Below the pieces are notes generated by a model that worked only from the letters and a program-made list of their open reading frames with translations, searched no databases and was not told where the DNA came from. This document shows positions 45,243 to 58,189 of a DNA stretch of 64,000 nt, in pieces; within the stretch, counting starts at the first letter, position 1, and each line of letters starts with the position of its first letter. The position numbers and the translations under genes are program-made. Source of the DNA: Immundisolibacter sp. GTDB lineage: Bacteria > Pseudomonadota > Gammaproteobacteria > Immundisolibacterales > Immundisolibacteraceae. The stretch lies in assembly GCF_014359565.1 (NCBI RefSeq), contig NZ_JACIZD010000001.1, forward strand, positions 434,001-498,000, given 5' to 3'.

Positions 45243-45611
45243 TCGTCTGTAGTCAGCCGCGCGGATGGCTCGCCGCCGCAGCGGCAACTGCCCGTCTATC
45301 ACAGCAGCGGGCTCACTCCCACTCTATTGTCAACGGCCAGTCGCTTTTCATAGGTAAGGACCGAGCTTTGTCGGCCGGAAATCGGCCGGATACCGACATC
45401 TCTACCGTCGCCAAGCAATGCATGACAACAGTCATCCCTATGACTTGGAGCGATGAAGCCCGCTTCACAGCCTTCGGCAAGGCAGAACGGGACGTCCTCA
45501 CCCGAGGTTGACGGTATCGGAAGTGCCGTGCCGCGAGCCAATGACGGTTGACCCTGCCTCGGTTTCACATACATCAGAACGTTGATAATTTTCTGATGAA
45601 CGGAGAGCGAG
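45243..45611. other. Non-coding junction between core genome and accessory island
   Basis: These 369 bases hold no convincing gene. They contain the guaA-tail-like direct repeat (45313-45330) and the probable left end of the IS3-family relic (near 45549). A minus-strand frame at 45313-45501 ends in PLTIEWE-stop, the same residues as the GuaA C-terminus except for one change, but the rest is unrecognisable. Confidence 0.6.
45313..45330 (+). repeat. Putative attachment-site repeat, distal copy of the guaA 3' end
   Basis: TCACTCCCACTCTATTGT matches the guaA 3' end at 56615-56632 (TCACTCCCACTCGATGGT) at 16 of 18 bases, in the same orientation. Read on the minus strand both encode TIEWE-stop; the two differences fall at codon third positions. 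It marks the core-side edge of a putative island inserted at the 3' end of guaA. Confidence 0.7.
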
Positions 45612-45681
45612 ATGGGCAACAGAGCATTGGTACCGAACCGGCAGTACCCGGATGAGTTCAAGGCGGAGGCGGTGCGGCTAG

Positions 45682-47202
45682 GAGCCTGGGCGGTAGGAAT
45701 CCATGGCGCTAAGATTTGGCCATGCCAACGACCTACCGCCCGTACGATCCCGACCAGCTTCTGTTGCTGCCTGCGTCACTCAAGGAGTGGCTGCCGGAGC
45801 GGCATCTGGCGTACTTCATATCCGACGCCGTGGAAGCGCTGGACCTCAAAGCGTTTCATGCGCGCTATGCGGGTGACGGCCGGCGGCGTCAACCGTTCGA
45901 TCCATCGATGATGGTCAAGGTGCTGGTGTATGCCTACGCCAGCGGCGTGTTCTCGTCGCGCAAGATCGCCAGTCGTTTGGAAGAGGACGTGGCGTTTCGC
46001 GTGCTGGGCGCGGGGAATTTCCCGGCGCACCGGACGCTGCGGGAGTTTCGGCAGCTGCACCTGGCGGAGTTCTCGGCACTGTTCGTGCAGATCGTGCAGC
46101 TGGCGCGGGAAGCGGGCTTGGTGAAGCTGGGCCGGATCGGCATCGACGGCACCAAGATCAAGGCCAACGCCAGCAAGCACAAGGCGATGAGCTATGGCCG
46201 GATGCGGGAGCAGGAGGCGCGGCTGAAGTCCGAGATTGCGCAGCTGTTGAAGCAGGCCGAGGCGCAGGACGCGCAGGAAGATGCCCAGTACGGCGACCGG
46301 CGCGGCGACGCGCTGCCGGATGAGCTGGGACGGCGCGAGCAGCGGCTCAAGATCATCCAGGCGGCCAAGGCGCGGCTCCAAGCGCGGCAGCGCGAGCAGG
46401 ACCACAGGGACGGACGCAGCATGGACGACGACGGCCAGACGCGCGGTCCGGGCGGGCGTCGCTGCAAGCGCGCCTTCGGCGTACCCGAGGACCAGGCGCA
46501 GGACAACTTCACGGATCCGCAGTCGCGGATCATGAAGACGGCCGATGGGTTTCAGCAGGGCTACAACGCTCAGGCGGCCGTGGACGAAGACAGCCATCTG
46601 ATTGTCGCGACCGGGTTGACGGACTGTGCGGCAGACACCCATCAGCTGCTGCCGATGATCGAGGCCACGATGCGCACCGTGGGCGCTGCGCCGACGATGA
46701 CGCTGGCTGACAGCGGCTATGCCAGCGAGGACAACTTCGCGGCACTGGAGGCGCGGCAACTGCCCGCGTGCGTGGCGCTGGCGCGTGAAGGCAAGGCCTT
46801 GCGCACGATCGATCCAGCGCAACACCCGGCAACGCAGCGCATGGCCGAGCGATTGGCCACGCCGCAGGGCAAGGATCACTACCGGCGGCGCAAGTTCATC
46901 CCCGAGCCGGTCTTCGGCTGGATCAAACAGGCGATGGGCTTTCGGCGATTCAGTGTCCGCGGCCGTGAGGCGGTGACGGGCGAGTGGAATCTGGTGTGTC
47001 TGGCGCTCAACCTGCGGCGGATGCAGCGGCTGGGATGGGCGCCGACGTAACCGATCAAGGGCGCAATGCGCCACCCACTGCATGCAAGCCCCCCGACCCG
47101 CTTCAAAGCGGATCATGCACGGCACGCTCCAGATCGATCATCGCCTCGCGTCGCTGGCGCGCTCGAATCAAGATCGGCTGAAACTTTCAGCCGCCCAGGC
47201 TC
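45682..47202 (+). mobile_element. IS1182-type insertion sequence
   Basis: This 1521-base element has perfect 12-base terminal inverted repeats (GAGCCTGGGCGG at 45682-45693 and its complement at 47191-47202). It is flanked by a 4-base target duplication CTAG (45678-45681 and 47203-47206). One transposase gene fills it. It inserted into the orfA of an IS3-family element, so it arrived later. The family is assigned from the transposase. Confidence 0.9.
45722..47050 (+). CDS. Transposase, IS1182 (IS5-like) family
   Basis: This DDE transposase of 442 residues has an N-terminal domain typical of IS1182/IS1380-like elements (YRPYDPDQLLLLPASLKEWLPE) and catalytic-domain signatures GIDGTKIKANAS, LADSGYASEDNF and EPVFGWIKQAMGFRRF. 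The last contains the catalytic Glu. The charged insert between the first two (about 155-250) is normal for the family. A TTG at 45716 adds two residues; ATG 45722 is preferred. The gene is intact, so the element may be active. Confidence 0.9.
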   Translation: MPTTYRPYDPDQLLLLPASLKEWLPERHLAYFISDAVEALDLKAFHARYAGDGRRRQPFDPSMMVKVLVYAYASGVFSSRKIASRLEEDVAFRVLGAGNFPAHRTLREFRQLHLAEFSALFVQIVQLAREAGLVKLGRIGIDGTKIKANASKHKAMSYGRMREQEARLKSEIAQLLKQAEAQDAQEDAQYGDRRGDALPDELGRREQRLKIIQAAKARLQARQREQDHRDGRSMDDDGQTRGPGGRRCKRAFGVPEDQAQDNFTDPQSRIMKTADGFQQGYNAQAAVDEDSHLIVATGLTDCAADTHQLLPMIEATMRTVGAAPTMTLADSGYASEDNFAALEARQLPACVALAREGKALRTIDPAQHPATQRMAERLATPQGKDHYRRRKFIPEPVFGWIKQAMGFRRFSVRGREAVTGEWNLVCLALNLRRMQRLGWAPT

Positions 47203-47450
47203 CTAGCGGAGTCGATCGGCGGCTGCCAGGCGGCGAAGCGGCTCGGGATTCCGGATTCCAGCTTGTGGAACTGGATCCGGCTCAGCCGGGTGGGAAAGCT
47301 GGCCACTGGGAAGCCGGGAGCCGTGCCGGTGAAGCGATCCGGGTCGGAGTTGGAGGCCGAGAACGCGCGCCTGCGTCGCGAACTGGCCAACACCCGGCTG
47401 GACCTGGAGATCGTAAAAAAAGCGGCGGCGTATTTCGCGAAGCAGTCGCG

Positions 47451-47800
47451 GTGAAGTACGCCTGGATCGATGCGCACCGCGACCGGTTCAGCGTGGCCCG
47501 GATGTGCCGTCAACTGGACGTTTCGCGCACCGGCTACTGCCAGTGGCGAACGCGGCCGCCAAGCCCGCGTGCGCAGGGCAATGCGGCGCTGGACGCCCAA
47601 GTGGCCGCACTTCACGCCCAGTACAAACGCCGCTACGGGCGCCGGCGGATTGTGCGGGCGCTGGGGCAGCCGGTCGGCCACGAGCGCGTGCGCAAGAGCC
47701 TGCAGCGCCAGGGGCTGCGCCCGCTGTACCGACGGCCCTACCGGGTGACGACGGACTCGGATCATCGCCGGCCGGTGGCGCCCAACGTGCTCGAGAGGCA
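47451..47800 (+). pseudogene. IS3-family transposase OrfB, 3' truncated
   Basis: GTG 47451 overlaps the orfA stop and lies in the -1 frame relative to orfA, as in IS3 elements. The product starts VKYAWIDAHRDRFSVARMCR and carries the HTH_21-like region (YGRRRIVRALG, GHERVRKSLQRQGLRPLYR). It loses homology after VAPNVLERQ, where the integrase-core DDE domain should begin. The break is close to 47800. Confidence 0.85.
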
Positions 47801-47803
47801 AGG

Positions 47804-49273
47804 TCACGCCGTTGTGCTCTCCAGCCCAATCCCGAGCACAGATCCATGCCAGACTTCCTCGCGCCAGTCCCCGTAATCGGTTTCGCGCTTCAGCACCCTA
47901 GCCCTCCACACATGGCAAAGCCGCATTCCGTCGACGTGAAGTAGTCGCCTGGTCACGTCGCGGTCGAGGACGAGTGCCACACCAGTGGGACCGCCCATAT
48001 GCTTCGGATGGGTTGGCCTCCACCTCCAGTTCCAGTGCAGCAGTTCGCCGACTTTGGTCCCAGAGAGAAGCACATCCGCGCCACCCTCTCTAGAAATCGC
48101 AATCAGGGGACTTTGTGATTCGTGCGCCGGGAGGCAAGGCATGCGGCTCACAAGATCGGACTGCAGATATCCCACTCTGTTGCCAACCAGCGGCAATAGG
48201 ACAGGCCGGAGGCGACCTCCCGCCTTCGCCGGAAAGGTCGCCTGTCTGTCCAGCGCATCGATCCGCAGCGTCAGGTCCTCGGCCCTGGGCACGTACATCG
48301 TGCCCGGAAGGAAGTCGTGGACCCGGAAGACTTCCTCCGCATCGATGGCTTCGCCAGAGCTAAGGATGGAAACAATCTCCAACTCGCAGTTGTATCGAAC
48401 GTCTCCATGCAGCGGCAGGTTGAGATGAAGCAGCGACTTAGCCTCGGCTTCTTGCACTTCCCTCAGGACTGAAGCGGCAAGGCGTGCCACCTCTTCCGGC
48501 GCACCGGGACGGGCCCCGTGGAGAGGCACCACCCATCCGGGTACCCCACCGGGCAGCATAGGCAGCAGACTGAGGTCAGCCGGCGACGCGACCATAGCCG
48601 CGGCCTGGGCCTCCGCAATGGGCATGTTCCAAATATCAGCGGCGAGGGCAAGCGTCCTGAGGAAGGCAGACCTCGCGAGCTGACCACGCCGCGCGACGAA
48701 CTGGCCCACCTCGCCCCGGTCGCTCTCGGGAAGGAAGAAGCTGAAGTGACCGTCACTGCTGCTGTCGGTATGCTCGATCAGCCGCTCGAACTCGAAGGTC
48801 CACTGCGCAATGAAGGGCCTGCCCGACTCCTGCTGCAGGTCTTGCAAGCTGAGCACCAGGGCCCTCGGGACGATCTGGCCGCGTGCGAGTTCCTCTCTCA
48901 GCTCTGGTCGCTGGTAGAAGCGCGGCGCCTCGCCAGAGTGACCCTTCAGCCACGAGTGCACGAGCACGGGCGTGCCGAAGGCGTGCCCGATGAAGGCATC
49001 AGACAGCGCGGAGGGTGCGTTGATCGAGGCCCGCAGATCCGCCGACGAGAGAACCGGTGCCCCCCGCGCAGCAACCACGATGGCGAGTGCCTCAAGTACC
49101 TCCGACTCAAGTGTGAGCGCACGCAACCATCGCAGCAGCGCCTGCCACGTCGCCGCGCCCGTCCTCTCGTTCTTGAGTGCTCCGGCGACCTGATGGATCA
49201 CTTGCAACTTGGCCATGGGAACGGGCAGGCGGAGCCTGCACATCGCAACATCGAGTAGTTCCGCGCTCGTCAT
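47804..49273 (-). CDS. Unknown partner protein of the STAND NTPase (489 residues)
   Basis: I do not recognise this protein. It is encoded directly after the STAND NTPase with a four-base overlap (ATGA at 49270-49273), so the two are an operon and presumably work together. The N-terminal 110 residues look helical (LDVAMCRLRLPVPMAK ... LEALAIVVAARG). The rest mixes beta segments and contains no membrane helix, P-loop, or nuclease motif that I can see. The last 90 residues include an unusual Trp-rich stretch (LLHWNWRWRPTHP). The gene ends at 47804, four bases from the break point of the IS3 relic, so its natural C-terminus may have been lost. The upstream in-frame extension to 49480 is a shadow inside the STAND gene. 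Confidence 0.75.
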   Translation of the reverse strand: MTSAELLDVAMCRLRLPVPMAKLQVIHQVAGALKNERTGAATWQALLRWLRALTLESEVLEALAIVVAARGAPVLSSADLRASINAPSALSDAFIGHAFGTPVLVHSWLKGHSGEAPRFYQRPELREELARGQIVPRALVLSLQDLQQESGRPFIAQWTFEFERLIEHTDSSSDGHFSFFLPESDRGEVGQFVARRGQLARSAFLRTLALAADIWNMPIAEAQAAAMVASPADLSLLPMLPGGVPGWVVPLHGARPGAPEEVARLAASVLREVQEAEAKSLLHLNLPLHGDVRYNCELEIVSILSSGEAIDAEEVFRVHDFLPGTMYVPRAEDLTLRIDALDRQATFPAKAGGRLRPVLLPLVGNRVGYLQSDLVSRMPCLPAHESQSPLIAISREGGADVLLSGTKVGELLHWNWRWRPTHPKHMGGPTGVALVLDRDVTRRLLHVDGMRLCHVWRARVLKRETDYGDWREEVWHGSVLGIGLESTTA

Positions 49274-52200
49274 GCCTCTGCCTGCACCAGCCAGGCCGGA
49301 CTCGTCAGCGGCTGGTCGGAGAAGTCCTCGACGGTCGTATCCACCATAGCCTCGACCACGCTCCTTGCCGCGGCAACCTCGTCCACCGCGAGGAGGAAGT
49401 GGACCAGGCGATGGTGCGGGATGGACAGCGAGCCACCAGGCCCGTCCGGCCGGGTTGTATCGGAGATGAACTGCCTCCACCTCTCCTTGTAGTGGGCCGC
49501 AAACGTCGCGTATCGCTCAAGCGCCTGCTGCAGGCCGTGGTACTCGTCCCAGCCGCGGCATTGCAGTTGCGCGGCGACCAGCCAGCGGTATGCCGTCTCC
49601 CTTCCCTCCAGACGCAGGCTCGTCTGGAAGGCCTGGTCCAGGATGTCGGCGATCCCGCCGAAGCCGTCGCGCCGGTCGCGAAGCGGTTCGAGGCAGCGCA
49701 GCAATTCGATACCCCGGCCCCGAGCCAGCCAATGCTCAAACCATCTACGGACGATTCTTCGCTCCGCCACGTAGGCCTTTCGCGAGCGGAGCTCCGCCAG
49801 CAGCTCCTGGACACTGGAGGCCGAGTAGATGGTTACGTCGATGTCAGGATCTTCCGGCTCGGGCGAGCTGTAGCGCTCCCGCTCGCTGCCAAGCTCTTCG
49901 ACCGGCAGGCCGAAGCGTTCCGCGTTGGCGGTGATCAAAACCTGTGCGTGGGGATCGCCTGCCGCTGCGCGGCCGCGCAGCGCGCCAACGGCAGTGCTGT
50001 CCCACAGCGCCGCGGCGACGACAGGCATGGCCGGGTCATCGAGCGGCTGGCTCGACAGCAGTTCAGCGAAGACGTTCGCCGCCGTGTACCACTCGGAGGA
50101 CACGAGGCAGTGGTTGAAGAAGGCGGCGAAGACCCCCGGCATGAGATCGATCATCAGGGCCGCAAGGTCCGAAGGGCGGGTGCCGGAGTCCTCGGTCATG
50201 TCCCCCAGAGGCAGGACGACCGGGACAAGCCGGCGCAGCATGTCCGTCGCGAACGCACGATCCTTCGGCGAGATTGCCTTCACTGCATCAAGCGCGAAAG
50301 CAATGGTGGGATCCTTGCGCCAGCCGTAGCCGATCACGCAGGCCAGCGACCTGCGCAAAAGGGCGTCGGCGCGCTCCCTGAGTCCGAAAGTGGTCGCGAG
50401 CTGGCAGAGCTCGACATAGCTGGCCGCCCTTTCGTTGAAGGGGGTCACGACCGCCGTGATGCCGCGAGCCCGGCCATCGATGTCGTCACCAACGAGTTCG
50501 CGATCCAGCAGATCCAGGCCTGGACCAGCAAACCGGTCGCACCAGCTTGATGACGCGAAGTGCTGCGACTTCCTGGCGTGGGCCCACTCAGTGGACGGGA
50601 CCTTTACCCGACCCGAGCGCAGCGCGGTCAGCAGGAACAGGTCGCCGGACACCTCCGTGAGTGCGTCACGGAATGGGACGTGGTCGGTCACGGCCTCGTA
50701 GCCCTCGGGCTGCCTGACTGCGTCCAGGAGGCGGAACGGCAATGCGAACGCCGGGTCCGCGTGGCGGGCCAGGAGTGCCCCAACAGTGTCTGCAAGCATC
50801 GCCATTTGCTTGCAGGCTTCCGTCAGCCAGGCTCGCTTGCCGTAGACAGGCGCCGGCTCGACGACCGCGGCACCGCGCTGCGACAGGCATCGCGCAACCC
50901 TCGCGAAGAAGAAGCGATGCAGATAGCGCTGCGTGAACTCGCGCGACGGTGAGTTGTGCTGAGCCACATCGAGCAACGGCTCATACTCCTTGAAGTGGCG
51001 ATGCCTGTAGGTGGCCTTCTGGTAGAGCAGTCGCCAGCACGAGGACAGTGGATGCTTCGAGAACCTGGTGAAGGCCGGCCACTCGTGAACCTTCGCGCGC
51101 AGCGCGCCGGCGAGACGCAGGCACGCCAACTCTAGTTCGACCCGCTGAACAAGCGCCATCGGCAGGTAAACGAACGCCATCAGCGGCGCAAGCTCGGCCT
51201 TTTTGGTGAGCTCCCGAAGAAATATTTCGAACAGGTGCGCGGCGTCATCTTTCGTGCCGCCGCCGCCGGTGATGGAAAGGATCCGCTCAGGTTCAAACCG
51301 GCTGGTGCCTGCGGCAAGCTGCAGCCAGCCCTCGATGGCGACCTTGTACTCATCGCGCGTGTAGGCGCCCACGCTAACTCGGTCGTTGATGCGCCGTCGC
51401 ATCCGCTCAAGCAGGTCGGTCGCTTCAGCGCTTCGCCCCGCCTGCAGATACTGACCGCCAATCAGATGGAGGCGATCAACACTCGCAGTCTGCAGGCCAG
51501 CAGCCAGTGTCTTCAGTGGGTACTCGTCGTCGGTGAGCTGCAAGGCGCAGGCGTGGAGCCGCTCGTAGTCGTCGACCTGGAACTGCGGTCCGTTGTAGAC
51601 GCGCGTCTTGAGCCACCGCATGCGGATCGCATCCGCAAAGTCACCGTTTCTGAACGCGATTTCCTCGGCACGCTCGAGGATTGCCTCGACCTGGTCTCGG
51701 GGATACGCGGTTGCAAGGCTCTCGATCACCCAGTTCCTGTCAGGGCGGGCCAGCAGGTTTCGCGGATCGCCGGCCCGCGCTTCGTACAACCACTGCCAGC
51801 CCCAGCGGTGAAACCTAGGAGCGTGATTCTTTAGCCACGCGACCACCTTGGGTAGAAGGACTTGCACCCGCTCGGCATGCTCGGTGATCTCACGGACGAA
51901 TGCGTACAAGCTTCCGTGGAAGGCCACCTGCCCGGCTTCCGAGTTGTGGAGCAGGTGCCCGATAGCGGGGCTCAGTTCGCCCGGCTCGATGCCCAGGCAG
52001 GTCTCCAGGCCCAGCGGCGGCCAGATGAAGCCGGTATCCGCCAGTAGGTGCAGGGCGTCCTTCGCGTGATTCGGCTGTTGCTGCCAGAGCATGCCGTAGT
52101 ACTTCCGGATGTCTCCGTCCGGCGCCAGCGCGTTTGAGCGGACCGTCGAAGGCTCCAGGACTCGATGCTGCCTGAGCAGTGACTCGAAGGCATAGGTCAG

Positions 52201-53646
52201 CACCAGCGGGTGGCTGCCAGTGACGTCCTGGAAGGCACCGGCGAGCCCCACCAGGCCGTCTGCCGCCGGATGCCTCGCACTCTCCAACTCGAAACGCCCT
52301 GCGTCGAGCTGAGCTCGGAGCCAGCTCTCGATGGACACGAGTGACATACGCGGAAGCTCCCGCCAAACATCGGCGTCGACAAAGCGGCCGAGCTGGAACG
52401 GCAATTGCGCGTCGGATACCTTCTGGGTGCCGATGACCAGGGTGACGTTGGCGGGCACTGGCAACAGCGCCTTGAAGAGGCTGTCCAGCGGTTGCCGGTC
52501 GCGGTCGTTCTCCCGCCAGACATGGTCGAGGCCGTCGACGACCACGATGAACCGCTTGCCTTCGCTGGCGTAACCGTTCGCGCAAGCCTCGATCCAGCCG
52601 CGCAGGTACTCCGGGCCGAGGTGCAGCCCCTGCACATGGGCGAAGTGACGCACCTCCATCTGCGAGATGAGCGAGTTGGCCACGCTCCCCAGCGTGAAAC
52701 GATCGGAGCGGTCGCCCAAGTCGAGGAAGTAGTGGTGGCGGATGTACGGCAGGTCACGTTGATCGAGTTCCCTGCAGACGTAGCTCAGGAACGTGCTCTT
52801 GCCCTGGCCGGGTGAGCCCCAGAGGACCACTGCCGCTTCCGTCTCCAGGTCGCGCAGGAACCGGGCGGCGAACTCCGCGTCGGGCGGCTGGTAACCATCC
52901 GGCACGCGAAACGCCTGCTCAAGGGGTCTCGGACGGCGGACGTCGACGGTCCCACGCAGGAAGTCAAGGGTGACCCTCCCATGCGGCGGTGGAAAATTCC
53001 TGCGTACCGCCCAATCGATCGCCTCTCGGAACAGGGCTAACCACCCGGTGCGATCACCGTGTCGCGGGATGAAGCGATCGACGACGGTTCGTTCGAGCGC
53101 TTCCGCGCCCTGGTAGCTGTGCCGGAACTCGAAACGGTCGAAAAAGGCCCGTGCCCTTCCTTCACCCCCAAGTTGCTCAAGGATCTCGGTGCGTGAAGCC
53201 GCGTCGACACGATCCAGGGTCACCTTGAGGGACGACGCGTCGATCGTGGCCTCGAACTCTCGGCTCGGGACTCGGTTCGTGACTAACGCGGCTGTGTGGA
53301 CGCGTTCCGCCGCGATCTCGAACAGGCCGTCGCACCACTTTTGCAGCAGTGACCGACCCCTCGGCCTGCGGGTTAGCAGCCAATCCCAAGTCAAGGCATT
53401 CCCGGCGTCCTGCGCGTTGACGGTGAACTTGACCTGCAGCAGGACGAGCGTGCCATCCCGTCGTTGCGCGACGATATCGTCGAGGCCCTGAGGAACCTCG
53501 TCGTGATCGGCCTCGAACTGGACCCAGTCGTAGAGTCCCGGATCGTCAAGCCAGTCACAGAGAAGACCGAGGCCGACGAGGTTCTGGTACACGTACCCGC
53601 TAAGCGGGATCGCGGTTCGCTTTATTGCGGTTGACAGTGCTGACAT
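49270..53646 (-). CDS. STAND-type NTPase with N-terminal Cap4-like PD-(D/E)XK nuclease domain (Avs-like)
   Basis: This is a 1458-residue protein. Residues about 10-150 match the architecture of Cap4/Avs effector nucleases: GYVYQNLVGL, an acidic patch, DD near 53 and QVK near 71-73, as in PD-(D/E)XK enzymes of the DD...QxK type. The P-loop NTPase follows, with Walker A GSPGQGKST (about 276-284) and Walker B VVVDGLDHV (about 367-375). The remaining ~1000 residues are helical, repeat-like and TPR-compatible, as in sensor regions of STAND proteins. By analogy with Avs proteins it may recognise a phage protein, oligomerise and cut DNA; this is inference. Alternative starts at 53667 and 53727 exist; 53646 begins at the conserved domain. 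The IS630-type element lies 67 bases upstream and may have replaced its promoter. No regulator is evident. Confidence 0.75.
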   Translation of the reverse strand: MSALSTAIKRTAIPLSGYVYQNLVGLGLLCDWLDDPGLYDWVQFEADHDEVPQGLDDIVAQRRDGTLVLLQVKFTVNAQDAGNALTWDWLLTRRPRGRSLLQKWCDGLFEIAAERVHTAALVTNRVPSREFEATIDASSLKVTLDRVDAASRTEILEQLGGEGRARAFFDRFEFRHSYQGAEALERTVVDRFIPRHGDRTGWLALFREAIDWAVRRNFPPPHGRVTLDFLRGTVDVRRPRPLEQAFRVPDGYQPPDAEFAARFLRDLETEAAVVLWGSPGQGKSTFLSYVCRELDQRDLPYIRHHYFLDLGDRSDRFTLGSVANSLISQMEVRHFAHVQGLHLGPEYLRGWIEACANGYASEGKRFIVVVDGLDHVWRENDRDRQPLDSLFKALLPVPANVTLVIGTQKVSDAQLPFQLGRFVDADVWRELPRMSLVSIESWLRAQLDAGRFELESARHPAADGLVGLAGAFQDVTGSHPLVLTYAFESLLRQHRVLEPSTVRSNALAPDGDIRKYYGMLWQQQPNHAKDALHLLADTGFIWPPLGLETCLGIEPGELSPAIGHLLHNSEAGQVAFHGSLYAFVREITEHAERVQVLLPKVVAWLKNHAPRFHRWGWQWLYEARAGDPRNLLARPDRNWVIESLATAYPRDQVEAILERAEEIAFRNGDFADAIRMRWLKTRVYNGPQFQVDDYERLHACALQLTDDEYPLKTLAAGLQTASVDRLHLIGGQYLQAGRSAEATDLLERMRRRINDRVSVGAYTRDEYKVAIEGWLQLAAGTSRFEPERILSITGGGGTKDDAAHLFEIFLRELTKKAELAPLMAFVYLPMALVQRVELELACLRLAGALRAKVHEWPAFTRFSKHPLSSCWRLLYQKATYRHRHFKEYEPLLDVAQHNSPSREFTQRYLHRFFFARVARCLSQRGAAVVEPAPVYGKRAWLTEACKQMAMLADTVGALLARHADPAFALPFRLLDAVRQPEGYEAVTDHVPFRDALTEVSGDLFLLTALRSGRVKVPSTEWAHARKSQHFASSSWCDRFAGPGLDLLDRELVGDDIDGRARGITAVVTPFNERAASYVELCQLATTFGLRERADALLRRSLACVIGYGWRKDPTIAFALDAVKAISPKDRAFATDMLRRLVPVVLPLGDMTEDSGTRPSDLAALMIDLMPGVFAAFFNHCLVSSEWYTAANVFAELLSSQPLDDPAMPVVAAALWDSTAVGALRGRAAAGDPHAQVLITANAERFGLPVEELGSERERYSSPEPEDPDIDVTIYSASSVQELLAELRSRKAYVAERRIVRRWFEHWLARGRGIELLRCLEPLRDRRDGFGGIADILDQAFQTSLRLEGRETAYRWLVAAQLQCRGWDEYHGLQQALERYATFAAHYKERWRQFISDTTRPDGPGGSLSIPHHRLVHFLLAVDEVAAARSVVEAMVDTTVEDFSDQPLTSPAWLVQAEA

Positions 53647-53710
53647 CGTGTGCAGTCTGACCTGCATCGGCAAACGGTTGGCTGCATTCCAACATGGTAT
53701 TGCGTCAGAC

Positions 53711-54793
53711 CTAGTGTTGTGTCCCATTGATAACCTTACATAGACGCTCGATCTTGGCGAGGATCGATTCGGCCGTGGCGGTCCACATGAAGGGCTTGGG
53801 GTGCTGGTTGTAGTGCTTCACGAACTCATCGATCTTGCGCTTGAGGTCGGCCACCGAATCGAACGAGCCGCGGCGAATGGCCTGGGTCGTGATCAACGCG
53901 AACCAGCGCTCGACTTGGTTCAGCCACGAACTGTAGGTCGGCGTGAAGTGCAGATGAAAGCGCGCTCGACGTGCCAGCCAAGCCTTCACTCGAGCGTGCC
54001 TGTGCGTCCCGTAGTTGTCGCAGATCAGGTGCACGTCGAGCGGCTCAGGCACGTTCGCTTCGATATGCCTCAGGAACGCCAGGAATTCCTGATGACGATG
54101 CTTGGGCTTGCACTGCGTCAGCACGGTGCCGTTGGCCACGTCGAGCGCCGCGAACAGCGTCGTGGTGCCGTGGCGCACGTAGTCGTGGGTGATGCCCTCG
54201 ACGTAACCAAGCCCCATCGGCAGCACCGGCTGGGTGCGCTCGAGCGCCTGGCACTGACTCTTTTCGTCAACGCACAGCACCAGCGCATGATCGGGCGGGT
54301 TCAGATACAGCCCGACGATGTCGCGCACCTTCTCGATGAAGAACGGATCGTTCGAGAGCTTGAAGCTCTTGGAGCGGTGCGGCTGCAGGCCAAACAGCGT
54401 CAGGTAGCGGTGTACAGTGCTCTTCGACAGCCCGGTTGCGTCCGCCAGGCTGCGACGCGACCAATGCGTCTTGCCGCTCGGCTTTCTGGTCAGTGCGGTA
54501 TTGATCAACTGCGCGATCTGATCCTCGCCGGTGCTTCGCGGACGACCGGATTTGAGCGCATTGTGCAGTCCGGCGATGCCCTGGTCTGCATACCGCTTGC
54601 GCCACAACGACACGGTGGGGCGGCTGACCCGGTAGCGGCGCGCCACCGCGCTGTTGGTCTCGCCGTCAGCCAACCGCAGGATCATCTGTGCCCGACGCGA
54701 CAACGCGGCCGGCAGACTCTGCGATCGGGCGATCGACTCAAGCTGCATCCGGTCCTGCGCAGTAACCAACAACTCAACCGCAGGCCTTCCCAT
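53711..54793 (-). CDS. Transposase, IS630 family
   Basis: This 360-residue DDE transposase has N-terminal HTH domains (AVARRYRVSRPTVSLWRKRY) and the IS630/Tc1-like catalytic core with Asp in CVDEKSQ, Asp in LICDNYGTH and Glu in LNQVERWF. It is complete. Its TAG stop is completed by the flanking TA target duplication (53712-53713) and one outside base, so the reading frame closes only because of where it landed. Confidence 0.92.
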   Translation of the reverse strand: MGRPAVELLVTAQDRMQLESIARSQSLPAALSRRAQMILRLADGETNSAVARRYRVSRPTVSLWRKRYADQGIAGLHNALKSGRPRSTGEDQIAQLINTALTRKPSGKTHWSRRSLADATGLSKSTVHRYLTLFGLQPHRSKSFKLSNDPFFIEKVRDIVGLYLNPPDHALVLCVDEKSQCQALERTQPVLPMGLGYVEGITHDYVRHGTTTLFAALDVANGTVLTQCKPKHRHQEFLAFLRHIEANVPEPLDVHLICDNYGTHRHARVKAWLARRARFHLHFTPTYSSWLNQVERWFALITTQAIRRGSFDSVADLKRKIDEFVKHYNQHPKPFMWTATAESILAKIERLCKVINGTQH

Positions 54794-54868
54794 CGATGTG
54801 CCCTCCCAGTGCCAAGCATACCGCTTGGACCGCGCAAATCATGGAAAGTTACATTCGGGACACAACGT
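53714..54868 (-). mobile_element. IS630-family insertion sequence
   Basis: This is a 1155-base element. The inner terminal repeats match over TTGTGTCCC: TGTTGTGTCCC (53715 onward) and its counterpart CGTTGTGTCCC at the other end (reading from 54867). A TA target duplication flanks it (53712-53713 and 54869-54870), as expected for IS630. It sits between the STAND gene and the toxin-antitoxin genes, only 67 bases from the STAND start codon. Confidence 0.88.
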
Positions 54869-54889
54869 TAGGTGGACCAATCACTTCCC

Positions 54890-55414
54890 TCATCCAACCA
54901 AGGCTTCCAGCTCCGTGGACGCCGAGCGCGGCAGCCGCCGGCCTTCCTTCGCCACGTTGACCTGCAAGGCTACCCGCGCCACGTCCAGCACGTCCTGCGC
55001 CAGCGAATAGCTGCCCTTGGCCTGCAGCCAAACCAGCACGTCGGCCAGGTGCCAGATTGACGCACTGCCTTCATGCACCGGTGCCGGGAAGCTGCCTGGA
55101 TGGGCCAGCATGAGCTTGCGCATGTTCTGCCGCGATACGCCGACGATCTCGGCCACATCAGTCAACCCGACGAGATCCGGCGCCACCTCGATCAACCGCG
55201 CCGATGGCACAGCGCGGCGCACGTCGGCCAGCGCGCTGCGCACAGCCGCGTCCGCATCAGCTGCCTCACGGGTGAATTCCAGCGCCAGGCGGCTCGGCTG
55301 CCCGATGCCGACCAAGGCATCATCGCAGCCGGCTTCACCCAAGCGCTCGACCATTGCATCCAGGTCGCGGTCGTCGTCGGCAAGCTGATACTTCAGGGTG
55401 AAGGTGTACTCCAT
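54890..55414 (-). CDS. HTH DNA-binding protein, probable antitoxin of the HicA-like toxin
   Basis: This 174-residue protein has an N-terminal alpha/beta domain (MEYTFTLKYQLADDD, perhaps HicB-like) and a MerR/AlpA-type helix-turn-helix at about 93-140 (LTDVAEIVGVSRQNMRKLM ... WHLADVLVWL). ATG 55414 follows a good Shine-Dalgarno (AAGGAG). It begins four bases after the upstream HicA-like gene and must be co-expressed with it. By analogy with HicAB it could be the antitoxin and autorepressor; I have not seen this exact pair named. Confidence 0.7.
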   Translation of the reverse strand: MEYTFTLKYQLADDDRDLDAMVERLGEAGCDDALVGIGQPSRLALEFTREAADADAAVRSALADVRRAVPSARLIEVAPDLVGLTDVAEIVGVSRQNMRKLMLAHPGSFPAPVHEGSASIWHLADVLVWLQAKGSYSLAQDVLDVARVALQVNVAKEGRRLPRSASTELEALVG

Positions 55415-55418
55415 CACG

Positions 55419-55694
55419 CTACTCCTTGGCACCGTCGTCAACCTCACGTTGCTTACGATGCGTGGTGCAGTTGTCCACGACGCGCCGCAAGGCGCGGGCG
55501 TGGTTGCTGGGGTTCTTCGGCGTGCTCCATATACTGGTGATGCAGAACTCGCCGCAGCGGCATTCCTCGTCGTTGTACGGGCAATACATCCGTCCCCAGG
55601 CGTGGCTACCGCCGACTTCGACTCGCCAGCCCTGCCCTTCGGCGTGCCTGAGAGCTTCCTCGACCTCTTTCTTCGGGTGAGGGGAACGAGCCAT
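55419..55694 (-). CDS. HicA-like toxin candidate
   Basis: This 91-residue basic protein resembles small HicA-type mRNA interferases. These have a double-stranded-RNA-binding fold with a conserved His, here in GGSHAWGR, and a C-terminal STPKNPSNHARALRR region. Three further cysteine-rich bits (YCPYNDEECRCGEFC) could bind zinc, not typical of HicA. It is the first gene of the pair with the HTH protein. A perfect 28-base palindrome lies 27 bases upstream. Confidence 0.65.
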   Translation of the reverse strand: MARSPHPKKEVEEALRHAEGQGWRVEVGGSHAWGRMYCPYNDEECRCGEFCITSIWSTPKNPSNHARALRRVVDNCTTHRKQREVDDGAKE

Positions 55695-55720
55695 CAGTGG
55701 TCTCCAATATGGGGAAGACT

Positions 55721-55748
55721 GGCGAGGTTGTCAAGTGACAACCTCGCC
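55721..55748. promoter_or_regulatory. Perfect 28-base palindrome upstream of the HicA-like gene
   Basis: GGCGAGGTTGTCA (55721-55733), two central bases and its exact complement (55736-55748). It lies 27 bases ahead of the HicA-like ATG and just after the dead vapC. No T-run follows on either strand, so an operator bound by the HTH partner is more likely than a terminator. Confidence 0.6.
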
Positions 55749-55753
55749 ACCTT

Positions 55754-56207
55754 TCAAGCAGTTGCGCTCAACGCCGGCGCCACCATGTTCTCCGGCATCA
55801 ACTTCGGCACGTAGGTCACACCCGCCGCTTCATTGGGCGAGGGGTCACGTGATGCCACGATGAAGCCCCGGGCCGCAGCGATGGCGGCGATGTAGCCGTC
55901 TGGCGTCGGGAAGCCGCGCCCGCCGTCCCTGGCCGTCACGGCCAGGTCGGCACAGTGGCGCGCGGCACCCGTGTCGAACGGCAGCACCCGATCCTTGAAC
56001 AGCTCCAGCAGCGCCGCCAGCGCCCGGTCGAACAGGTTCTTGCGCTTGCCCGCCGGCGCCGCCCGGATGCCAAGACAGCAACTCGGCCAGGGTGACGCGC
56101 GACAGATACAGGGTTTCCGCCGCCTGGTCGTTCAGCCAGGCCCTCATGGCGGCGTCTGGTTCCGGCTTCATCACCGCGGAAACGACGTGGGTATTCAGGA
56201 TGATCAT
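55754..56207 (-). pseudogene. VapC/FitB-type PIN toxin, frameshifted and active-site mutated
   Basis: This toxin ribonuclease is broken. The N-terminal part (56207 to about 56066) reads MIILNTHVVSAVMKPEPD, where the family has LDTNVVS, so the first catalytic Asp is Asn. Near 56066 a one-base insertion shifts the frame (ELLS then WHPGG instead of ELLFGIR). The C-terminal part resumes in another frame as LPFDTGAARHCADLAVTAR ... DGYIAAIAAARGFIVASRD. The last residues are also unusual. It starts directly after the antitoxin stop. Confidence 0.85.
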
Positions 56208-56462
56208 TCAGTCGAAGCTCAAGGGTTTGGCCGGCGTCTTGTCGCGCACACGCTCGAAGACGGCGAAATCTTCGTTGCTCAGACCGATCTTGCGGCCGAT
56301 GGCGGCCAGGGCATCGCCCACACGCACGCGGCTCGAAGGCTTGACCACGGCCGCCAGAATCTCGCGCACCTCCGCCTCCGTGCTGCGGCCGTGCGGGGGC
56401 GCCCGCACGCGCAAGGCGCGATGCACGTCATTCGGCACATTCCTTACCGTCAGGGTGGCCAT
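56208..56462 (-). CDS. FitA/VapB-type ribbon-helix-helix antitoxin
   Basis: This 84-residue antitoxin has an N-terminal ribbon-helix-helix domain (ATLTVRNVPNDVHRALRVRA ... STEAEVREIL) and a C-terminal tail that would bind the PIN toxin. It appears intact, while the toxin that follows is not. ATG 56462 is preferred over the longer frame to 56498. An inverted repeat at 56515-56537 may be its operator. Confidence 0.82.
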   Translation of the reverse strand: MATLTVRNVPNDVHRALRVRAPPHGRSTEAEVREILAAVVKPSSRVRVGDALAAIGRKIGLSNEDFAVFERVRDKTPAKPLSFD

Positions 56463-56514
56463 GATTCGCAGTTCCGTCTTTGCTTTCGGTGACTGCAAGG
56501 ATGGGTTTGTGCAG

Positions 56515-56537
56515 TCGTTCGTGCAAGGTTCGAACGA
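56515..56537. promoter_or_regulatory. Inverted repeat upstream of the FitA-like gene
   Basis: TCGTTCG (56515-56521) and CGAACGA (56531-56537) flank a nine-base centre. It lies 53 bases upstream of the antitoxin ATG. RHH antitoxins bind such repeats in their own promoters, so this is a possible autoregulatory site; short repeats also arise by chance. Confidence 0.35.
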
Positions 56538-56541
56538 TCAC

Positions 56542-56565
56542 AAAAAAGCCCGCAGTGACGCGGGC
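56542..56565 (-). terminator. Rho-independent terminator of guaB-guaA
   Basis: On the minus strand GCCCGC, a six-base loop and GCGGGC are followed by six T residues. It is 50 bases beyond the guaA stop and lies on the island side of the proposed junction. Confidence 0.85.
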
Positions 56566-56614
56566 CTAGCTGTGTTTTGGTGCCTGACCGTACCAGCCGG
56601 TGCCGGACCCCAAA

Positions 56615-58189
<1,575 letters not shown>

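Follow-up and report, generated by a model that had tools for sequence, protein, structure and literature searches.

PDC-M06, a catalogued candidate defence system, as a probable toxin-antitoxin module of guaA islands with a covarying palindrome upstream

The PDC labels of PADLOC denote candidate defence systems that came from a guilt-by-embedding search and are, in the available text of the source, mostly unvalidated (PMC12988326). PDC-M06 is one such candidate and is catalogued without a description. The gene pair described here is a member of PDC-M06: the two-gene make-up is the same, both proteins match nearly full length and no difference was found. No paper on PDC-M06 turned up in a literature search for that name. 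In our literature searches the HicA-like/excisionase-like make-up of PDC-M06, its position behind the guaA integrase and its covarying operator arms were likewise not met.

Several described systems resemble the pair or its setting. As in HicAB, the small gene comes first, its protein has a predicted alpha-beta-beta-beta-alpha order with a histidine at the GSH position, a predicted DNA-binding partner follows and there is a probable palindromic operator. Unlike HicAB, the first protein has no Pfam HicA match and carries a Cys-rich insert in the island clade, and the partner has a predicted ferredoxin-like N-terminal domain and excisionase-type helix-turn-helix (HTH) and, judged by profile and predicted strand order, no HicB domain. 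The AlpA/RdfS-type excisionases (phrog_2620; PDB 8dgl) share with the pair the predicted winged HTH and an adjoining tyrosine integrase with an Arm-DNA-bind_3 domain. PDC-M06 differs from them by the ferredoxin-like domain, by a nearly constant small partner and by an operator core that is found in this genome only at its own promoter. Shi of ICEclc is also a small HicA-derived protein on an integrative element. In the accessible part of its description Shi works with ParA, whereas the partner here is another protein, and it is reported not to impair growth when expressed alone, so a HicA-like fold is no proof of a toxin (PMC6812849).

The 3' end of guaA is a described integration site. In the sections at hand of the report on it, GIsul2 inserts there at GAGTGGGA, the same site as that of the island studied here (PMC9376610). 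Stenotrophomonas maltophilia defence island #13 (guaA-pgrR), which the available text gives as the most diverse defence island, is likewise flanked by guaA and carries defence systems (PMC11680222). The present island carries PDC-M06 next to the place of the integrase, in a copy from which most of the integrase is gone, and may differ in this from the published guaA islands.

Here we describe the pair in the window, which is the whole stretch of 64,000 nucleotides that was analysed. We read it, with a probability of about 0.62, as a type II toxin-antitoxin-like module that regulates itself and belongs to the backbone of a family of defence islands inserted in guaA. The data show the linkage of the two genes, a conserved core over the -35, the position in the island and the covariation of the outer palindrome arms; the folds of both proteins and the HTH are predicted, and toxicity, neutralisation, DNA binding, the dimer, metal binding and the purpose of the module are inferred. 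The coordinates are collected in Table 1.

Table 1. Features of the gene pair and its island, in positions of the window
Feature	Position	Strand	Remarks
Gene 1, HicA-like putative toxin	55419..55694	-	91 aa, ATG at 55694; ORF list; PADLOC PDC-M06A
Gene 2, putative antitoxin/repressor	54890..55414	-	174 aa from ATG; PADLOC PDC-M06B
Palindrome 14+2+14, probable operator	55720..55749		core 55726-55743 conserved; arms outside core covary
-35-like TTGACA	55729..55734	-	sequence and consensus of 57 relatives
-10-like CATATT (relatives: CATACT)	55706..55711	-	17 bases past -35; sequence and relatives' consensus cATACTGGAG
GGAG, Shine-Dalgarno-like	55702..55705	-	7 bases ahead of ATG; sequence, conserved in relatives
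attL-like repeat GAGTGGGAGTGA	56615..56626	-	3' end of guaA (guaA 56615-58264)
attR-like repeat GAGTGGGAGTGA	45313..45324	-	sister-genome similarity resumes at 45324
Integrase tail, last ~22 codons	55754..55822	-	22-residue match to relatives' integrase C-terminus
PIN-domain (VapC/FitB-like) gene, probable pseudogene, includes integrase tail	55754..56207	-	two ORFs, different frames
FitA-like ribbon-helix-helix antitoxin of PIN gene	56208..56498	-	PF22513 E 1.5e-18; TTG-start ORF, ATG inside
IS630-family transposase, directly downstream of pair	53711..54793	-	NF033545 E 2e-82
1485-aa NACHT/STAND protein	49270..53727	-	PF05729 E 5.1e-08

An earlier note on this DNA had reported a palindrome, a small gene with a Cys insert and a gene for an HTH partner, and all three are found on the minus strand. 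The perfect symmetry that it gave the palindrome holds (100% complementary), although at 14+2+14 and not 13+2+13. The palindrome does lie upstream of gene 1, at 25 bases from the ATG (26 for the 13+2+13 form) in place of the 27 given. The PADLOC membership, the guaA-island setting with its integrase remnant and the covarying arms go beyond that note. In the ORF list the ORF of gene 2 reaches back to a GTG at 55447.

The palindrome is not a chance feature, because its 18-base core has a single occurrence in the window, where 0.10 occurrences are expected with up to three mismatches, and the 16-base core is a single site in the 3.09-Mb genome even with two mismatches allowed. The earlier note had held that a palindrome not conserved upstream of homologues would refute its reading; a core of at least 13/16 precedes gene 1 in 74 of the 76 distinct stretches with at least 75% toxin identity and in 24/30 at 50-75%. 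Below 50% toxin identity it has mostly disappeared or changed (7/41 distinct stretches at 30-50%). Counted with same-place repeats, the figures for the three classes are 98/100, 31/37 and 9/51. Distant viral relatives have a related core, GTTGAC...GTCAAC, in 15/21 distinct upstream stretches; these cores also hold TTGACA or TTGACG, and TATAAT follows them in several loci. Within 110 bases of a few distant toxins (L102, L110 and L112) no palindrome with at least six pairs per arm was found. A scan of the whole viral collection for the core returned at least 120 stretches, and by our rough estimate chance alone gives as many.

The palindrome covers the predicted -35 (TTGACA-17-CATATT in the window), and TTGACA lies nearly all in its downstream half. 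The consensus of 57 relatives, the ones that share one spacing among the 67 distinct close rows, is GGTTGTCacTTGACAACCt.gcc..tcatcc.cATACTGGAGa.cactgATG. In almost all close loci the core keeps its distance from gene 1 to within a base. On these sequence features the palindrome is a probable operator over the pair's own predicted promoter. The GGAG would fall outside the message if the start site were close to the ATG.

The two genes are rarely apart. Protein 1 led us to 189 loci, of which 188 match the toxin at E<=1e-3. The partner follows directly downstream on the same strand in 144/147 distinct toxin-bearing stretches (185/188 loci with repeated stretches; the other three are partial or weak toxin matches). 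In the reverse direction, 46 of 50 viral loci collected through protein 2 have the toxin at E<1e-3; the remainder comprises two with a C-terminal toxin remnant, one without toxin and one cut by the contig end. The viral loci of the two collections have many contigs in common. A partner without an intact toxin is as expected for an antitoxin. The earlier proposal of a compact autoregulated module is supported, in the form of a tightly linked and probably autoregulated gene pair with a small HicA-like first protein, its Cys-rich insert and an HTH partner. Viral contigs L379 and L381 keep protein 2 behind a decayed toxin remnant.

Matches at E<=0.001, with weak and partial ones included, occur in 4/56 relative genomes; they were also found in 23/398 genomes of the phylum (with another profile), 19/369 of the class (the window's own genome counted in all three) and 11/399 and 20/341 genomes of two orders. 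A single-protein search for close viral relatives gave 11 stretches that fit a pattern, with none confirmed, and an alignment-based viral search gave 33 loci. Protein searches returned 115 plasmid records, mostly below 60% identity, and three phage records, one annotated as HicA toxin protein.

Protein 1 matches the PADLOC profile PDLC04385 (PDC-M06A) over nearly its full length (E 9.3e-55). The HicA-like fold that the earlier note suggested agrees in topology with the predicted model (pLDDT 81, alpha-beta-beta-beta-alpha), while the kinship behind it is weak, consisting of low-Z alignments and a short profile match. In VIA the model aligned with 5yrz_B (Z 4.0, 58 of 58 aligned) and 1whz (Z 3.5, 63 of 70), which we take to be HicA chains, and with 6g26_F (Z 3.9, 59 of 60) and 6hpb_A (Z 3.7, 54 of 57), whose entries carry HicAB complex titles. 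The HicA chains do not rank above unrelated folds (the top row is 4tsh_A, Z 5.1), and by the tool's own caution a Z below 8 can reflect a merely shared arrangement. An hhalign match of 27 columns (probability 34.8, E 0.0004) sets GW...SH31 of protein 1 against the GSH motif of HicA and so pairs His31 with the HicA histidine. The HicA side of that comparison was made of seven genome HicA proteins from 30 HicA loci found, namely those in which the script correctly picked the ORF on the given strand. Foldseek against the PDB gave no match to the model at E<=0.001, and Pfam gave no family at E<=1, PF07927 (HicA_toxin) included. HicA_toxin was also absent among the Pfam matches of 11 aligned family members, and a sequence search of solved structures returned chance-level matches (best thioredoxin reductase, E 0.087). 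Because there is no Pfam match, unrelated folds score equally high and the profile alignment is short, we call protein 1 HicA-like and not a HicA member; from the models and profiles, kinship to HicA is plausible but weak.

His31, in GSH31, is invariant in 28 aligned sequences, as are Cys38 and Cys76. The insert holds Cys38, Cys45, Cys47 and Cys51, and in the same alignment Cys45 and Cys47 are absent from 16 shorter viral relatives. We infer that the four-Cys insert is possibly a metal-binding site.

Protein 2 matches PDLC04388 (PDC-M06B) nearly full length (E 5.5e-85) and, in PHROGs, phrog_2620, "excisionase and transcriptional regulator" (E 1.5e-23). In its model (pLDDT 87.9) residues 1-80 are ferredoxin-like with the order beta-alpha-beta-beta-alpha-beta. 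A winged HTH of excisionase type is predicted at about 80-135, with the recognition helix at 95-104, in agreement with the HTH of the earlier note. The possible HicB-like domain proposed there for the N-terminal part is not supported, since no HicB family matches in Pfam or NCBIfam and the strand order of the model is another one; that of HicB is beta-beta-beta-alpha-beta. At E<=1 Pfam gave a sub-threshold AlpA match alone (E 0.21), and NCBIfam gave no match at all. Foldseek found nothing in the PDB at E<=0.001; its rows include the RdfS excisionase 8dgl_B (probability 1.00, E 0.026). The top VIA row is 7lw0_A, from a viral DNA-packaging motor and presumably an HTH (Z 6.8, 53 aligned, rmsd 2.1), and its score ties with ferredoxin-like rows. 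No HicB chain is among the best 50 Foldseek or VIA rows, an absence that excludes nothing.

These predictions suggest how the module may work. Protein 1 is probably an RNA-acting HicA-like toxin in which His31 would take the place of the catalytic histidine of HicA. The ferredoxin-like domain of protein 2, the putative antitoxin, probably binds and would neutralise it. As a dimer, protein 2 would bind the palindrome over the -35 through its winged HTH of excisionase/AlpA type and repress the operon. Loss of the island, or protein synthesis upset by phage attack, would then free the toxin, whereby the module may stabilise the island and possibly add a defence of the abortive-infection type.

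The island extends from about 45325 to 56614 (~11.3 kb) in the 3' end of guaA, and a 12-bp direct repeat of that end marks both borders. Similarity to a same-genus genome spans guaA as far as 56615 and begins again at 45324, with 94.7% identity over 7.6 kb. In this sister genome 2.3 kb of other DNA separates the flanks and the second repeat differs at 2/12 bases, so that the border is well placed although an empty site was not seen. A tRNA gene as integration site was discarded, as neither the island nor the sister stretch has one. GAGTGGGA alone has three copies in the window, where 1.34 are expected. One further copy, at 48170-48177 (minus strand), follows TTGGCAACA, which resembles TTGACAATA ahead of the repeat at 45313-45324; a second, tandem island possibly has its border here. 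A DDE transposase (DDE_Tnp_1, DUF772; 45716-47050, plus strand) lies beside the right border.

The order in most close relatives is guaA, tyrosine integrase, palindrome, pair and variable cargo. The 3' end of guaA is upstream on the same strand in 52/80 loci. A full integrase (about 418 aa, Arm-DNA-bind_3 and Phage_integrase) is upstream in 48/80 and ends ~60 to 210 bases before gene 1; the other 32 comprise 23 loci without such an integrase, six with a remnant and three with too little upstream DNA. The window retains guaA, a FitA-PIN pair, the integrase tail, the palindrome and the gene pair. Beyond the ~22-codon tail, which is in frame with the C-terminal PIN remnant, no further integrase match was found in the window's copy of the island, and most of the integrase is lost. 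The split PIN ORFs have sub-threshold PIN matches (E 0.0033 and 0.016). A reading of the gene upstream of the palindrome as VapC was dropped; in the relatives it is an integrase. Among the loci compared by match, a FitA-PIN pair stands at that place in the window and in L056 only; the order after guaA in L056 is similar to that of the window's pair (55754-56498).

The arms of the palindrome go on pairing beyond the 8-bp half-core. At positions 9-14, 281/402 cells are paired in 67 unique sequences (0.70; 0.41 in shuffled controls, largest shuffle 0.49), and with one arm shifted by 1-3 bases pairing falls to 0.14-0.27. A larger set of 71 unique sequences gave 285/426 paired cells against 166, with all four pair types present at positions 10 to 13. 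Representatives below 85% gene identity (21 sequences) still pair at 0.59 against 0.35 shuffled (largest shuffle 0.51). The excess ends at about position 14. A further 36 unique, mostly more distant loci pair at 0.42 against 0.28 (largest shuffle 0.41); the six close ones reach 0.53 and the 30 distant ones 0.39, both within their shuffles (largest 0.56 and 0.42). Since neither identity half of these loci beats its largest shuffle, the covariation belongs mainly to the guaA-island clade and is much weaker elsewhere, with scattered strong cases such as L089 (20 bp, one mismatch), L092 (15-16 bp) and L333.

Ordinary homodimer operators conserve sequence. The arms here change fast yet stay paired, unlike such operators, which calls for a hairpin or cruciform structure, insulation against read-through or fold-back mutation. 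If the core folds the nascent strand back, template switching would copy one arm from the other and the symmetry would be a by-product of mutation. L023 and L026 are what such copying might leave behind. Their genes are 97.9% identical and their toxins identical, and two concerted pair changes beside the core (CCATGG to CCTAGG) alter four bases and keep the arms paired. Protein 2 differs by four changes, none in the predicted recognition helix 95-104 and one, at residue 128, in the helix that follows the wing. Imperfect intermediates with single arm changes are also common between close pairs, however, as they would be under stepwise compensation, and the end of the excess near position 14 also speaks against fold-back. 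We regard fold-back as a tentative explanation of the arms, possible but on the unlikely side.

The cargo bears on another alternative, in which the pair defends against phages as a system in its own right, as its PADLOC candidate label implies. In the window the NACHT/STAND protein, with weak PADLOC matches to LmuA (1.3e-06), Avs1b (2.4e-05) and SAVED-PDDEXK effectors, is likely defence cargo of the island. For a survey of relatives, the longest ORF was taken from 44 of the 62 loci with a downstream ORF of at least 200 aa in view (the 18 left out mostly looked like repeats of loci already taken) and compared with PADLOC at E<=1e-10; in some cases the ORF so chosen may lie on the wrong strand. 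Among the matches listed (25 of 61 families) are HamB (Hachiman), GajB (Gabija), QatC, HerA, a type II methyltransferase, AbiEi, SoFic and PDC families, each listed model in one member. Ten downstream ORFs scanned singly gave four strong known-defence matches, one weak PDC match and five without a PADLOC match at E<=1e-5. The recurring part is the integrase with PDC-M06, and the changing part includes defence. The match to both PDC-M06A/B models and the defence genes that adjoin the pair in several relatives favour a defence system, and toxin-antitoxin pairs often act in abortive infection. But because the pair usually adjoins the integrase and the cargo varies, co-location alone is no proof that the pair defends; it may follow from residence in the island. 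A literature search for the label gave no paper and no antiphage test of the pair is known to us; a free-standing system seems to us rather unlikely.

Protein 2 may instead be chiefly a recombination directionality factor or island regulator, with protein 1 as its modulator and not a toxin. An excisionase-like partner beside an integrase could serve excision in place of the module proposed here. The pair comes directly after the integrase in 48/80 loci, the HTH is of excisionase type by the phrog_2620 and 8dgl_B rows, and in the available sections of the GIsul2 report alpA follows the integrase of that guaA element and its overexpression is reported to raise mobilisation, although its deletion left integration unchanged (PMC9376610). 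Against such a role, the operator core occurs once in the genome, at the pair's own promoter, although an excisionase could use other sites; distant viral pairs such as L116, L123 and L133 show no such integrase within the 3 kb covered; and the window keeps the pair after the loss of its integrase. We consider this role unlikely.

The palindrome itself may mainly be a transcribed hairpin at the end of the upstream gene, where it would terminate transcription, protect the 3' end or shield the toxin from read-through, and not an operator. It comes directly after the integrase stop codon in many loci, and all four pair types take part in the covariation of the outer arms. Pairing at positions 9-14 is highest with a full integrase upstream (4.53 of 6, shuffled 2.58, 45 rows), compared with 2.95 without one (shuffled 1.77, 21 rows, distant ones included) and 4.33 with a remnant (shuffled 3.10, six rows, within shuffles). 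The predicted RNA fold has a median of -20.7; when the arms were re-dealt 30 times the mean was -15.2. Mismatches number 33 for G-T/T-G against 46.7 expected, 24 for A-C/C-A against 46.5 and 84 for others against 166 (9, 4 and 22 in well-paired rows), so that those of G-U type are only slightly in excess, too little to prove an RNA hairpin. Energy and mismatch types do not decide the cause of the arm pairing. The strict conservation of the core sequence, however, is not needed for a hairpin, and long arms persist without the integrase (L041, 19 bp; L092, 15-16 bp). A hairpin in place of an operator is doubtful, and an intrinsic terminator is rejected, as by eye neither arm is followed by a T-run.

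Elements of these alternatives can be joined. PDC-M06 would then be a resident control module of defence islands, its antitoxin would also steer excision, and excision or loss would free the toxin. The palindrome would combine a specific core with self-complementary arms into a cruciform or hairpin sensor of supercoiling, single-stranded transfer DNA or read-through transcription. Such a combination, taken as a whole, is improbable.

With the toxin-antitoxin-like reading, a catalogued but undescribed defence candidate gains a testable identity. It also carries a warning, as a candidate found by its company may be the mere backbone of an island that carries the real defence genes. If a HicA-like protein is combined with an excisionase-type antitoxin, addiction and mobility would be joined in a single small module. 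Operator arms that change fast but in concert are unusual, and offer a clean case for setting selection on DNA or RNA structure against fold-back mutation.

Nine of the 23 loci without the usual integrase (L045-L053) have a common upstream stretch, another integrase and a 14+3+14 palindrome of their own before the same pair. In these 6.3-kb loci 83-84% of positions agree when compared without alignment, and they are perhaps a recently spread element.
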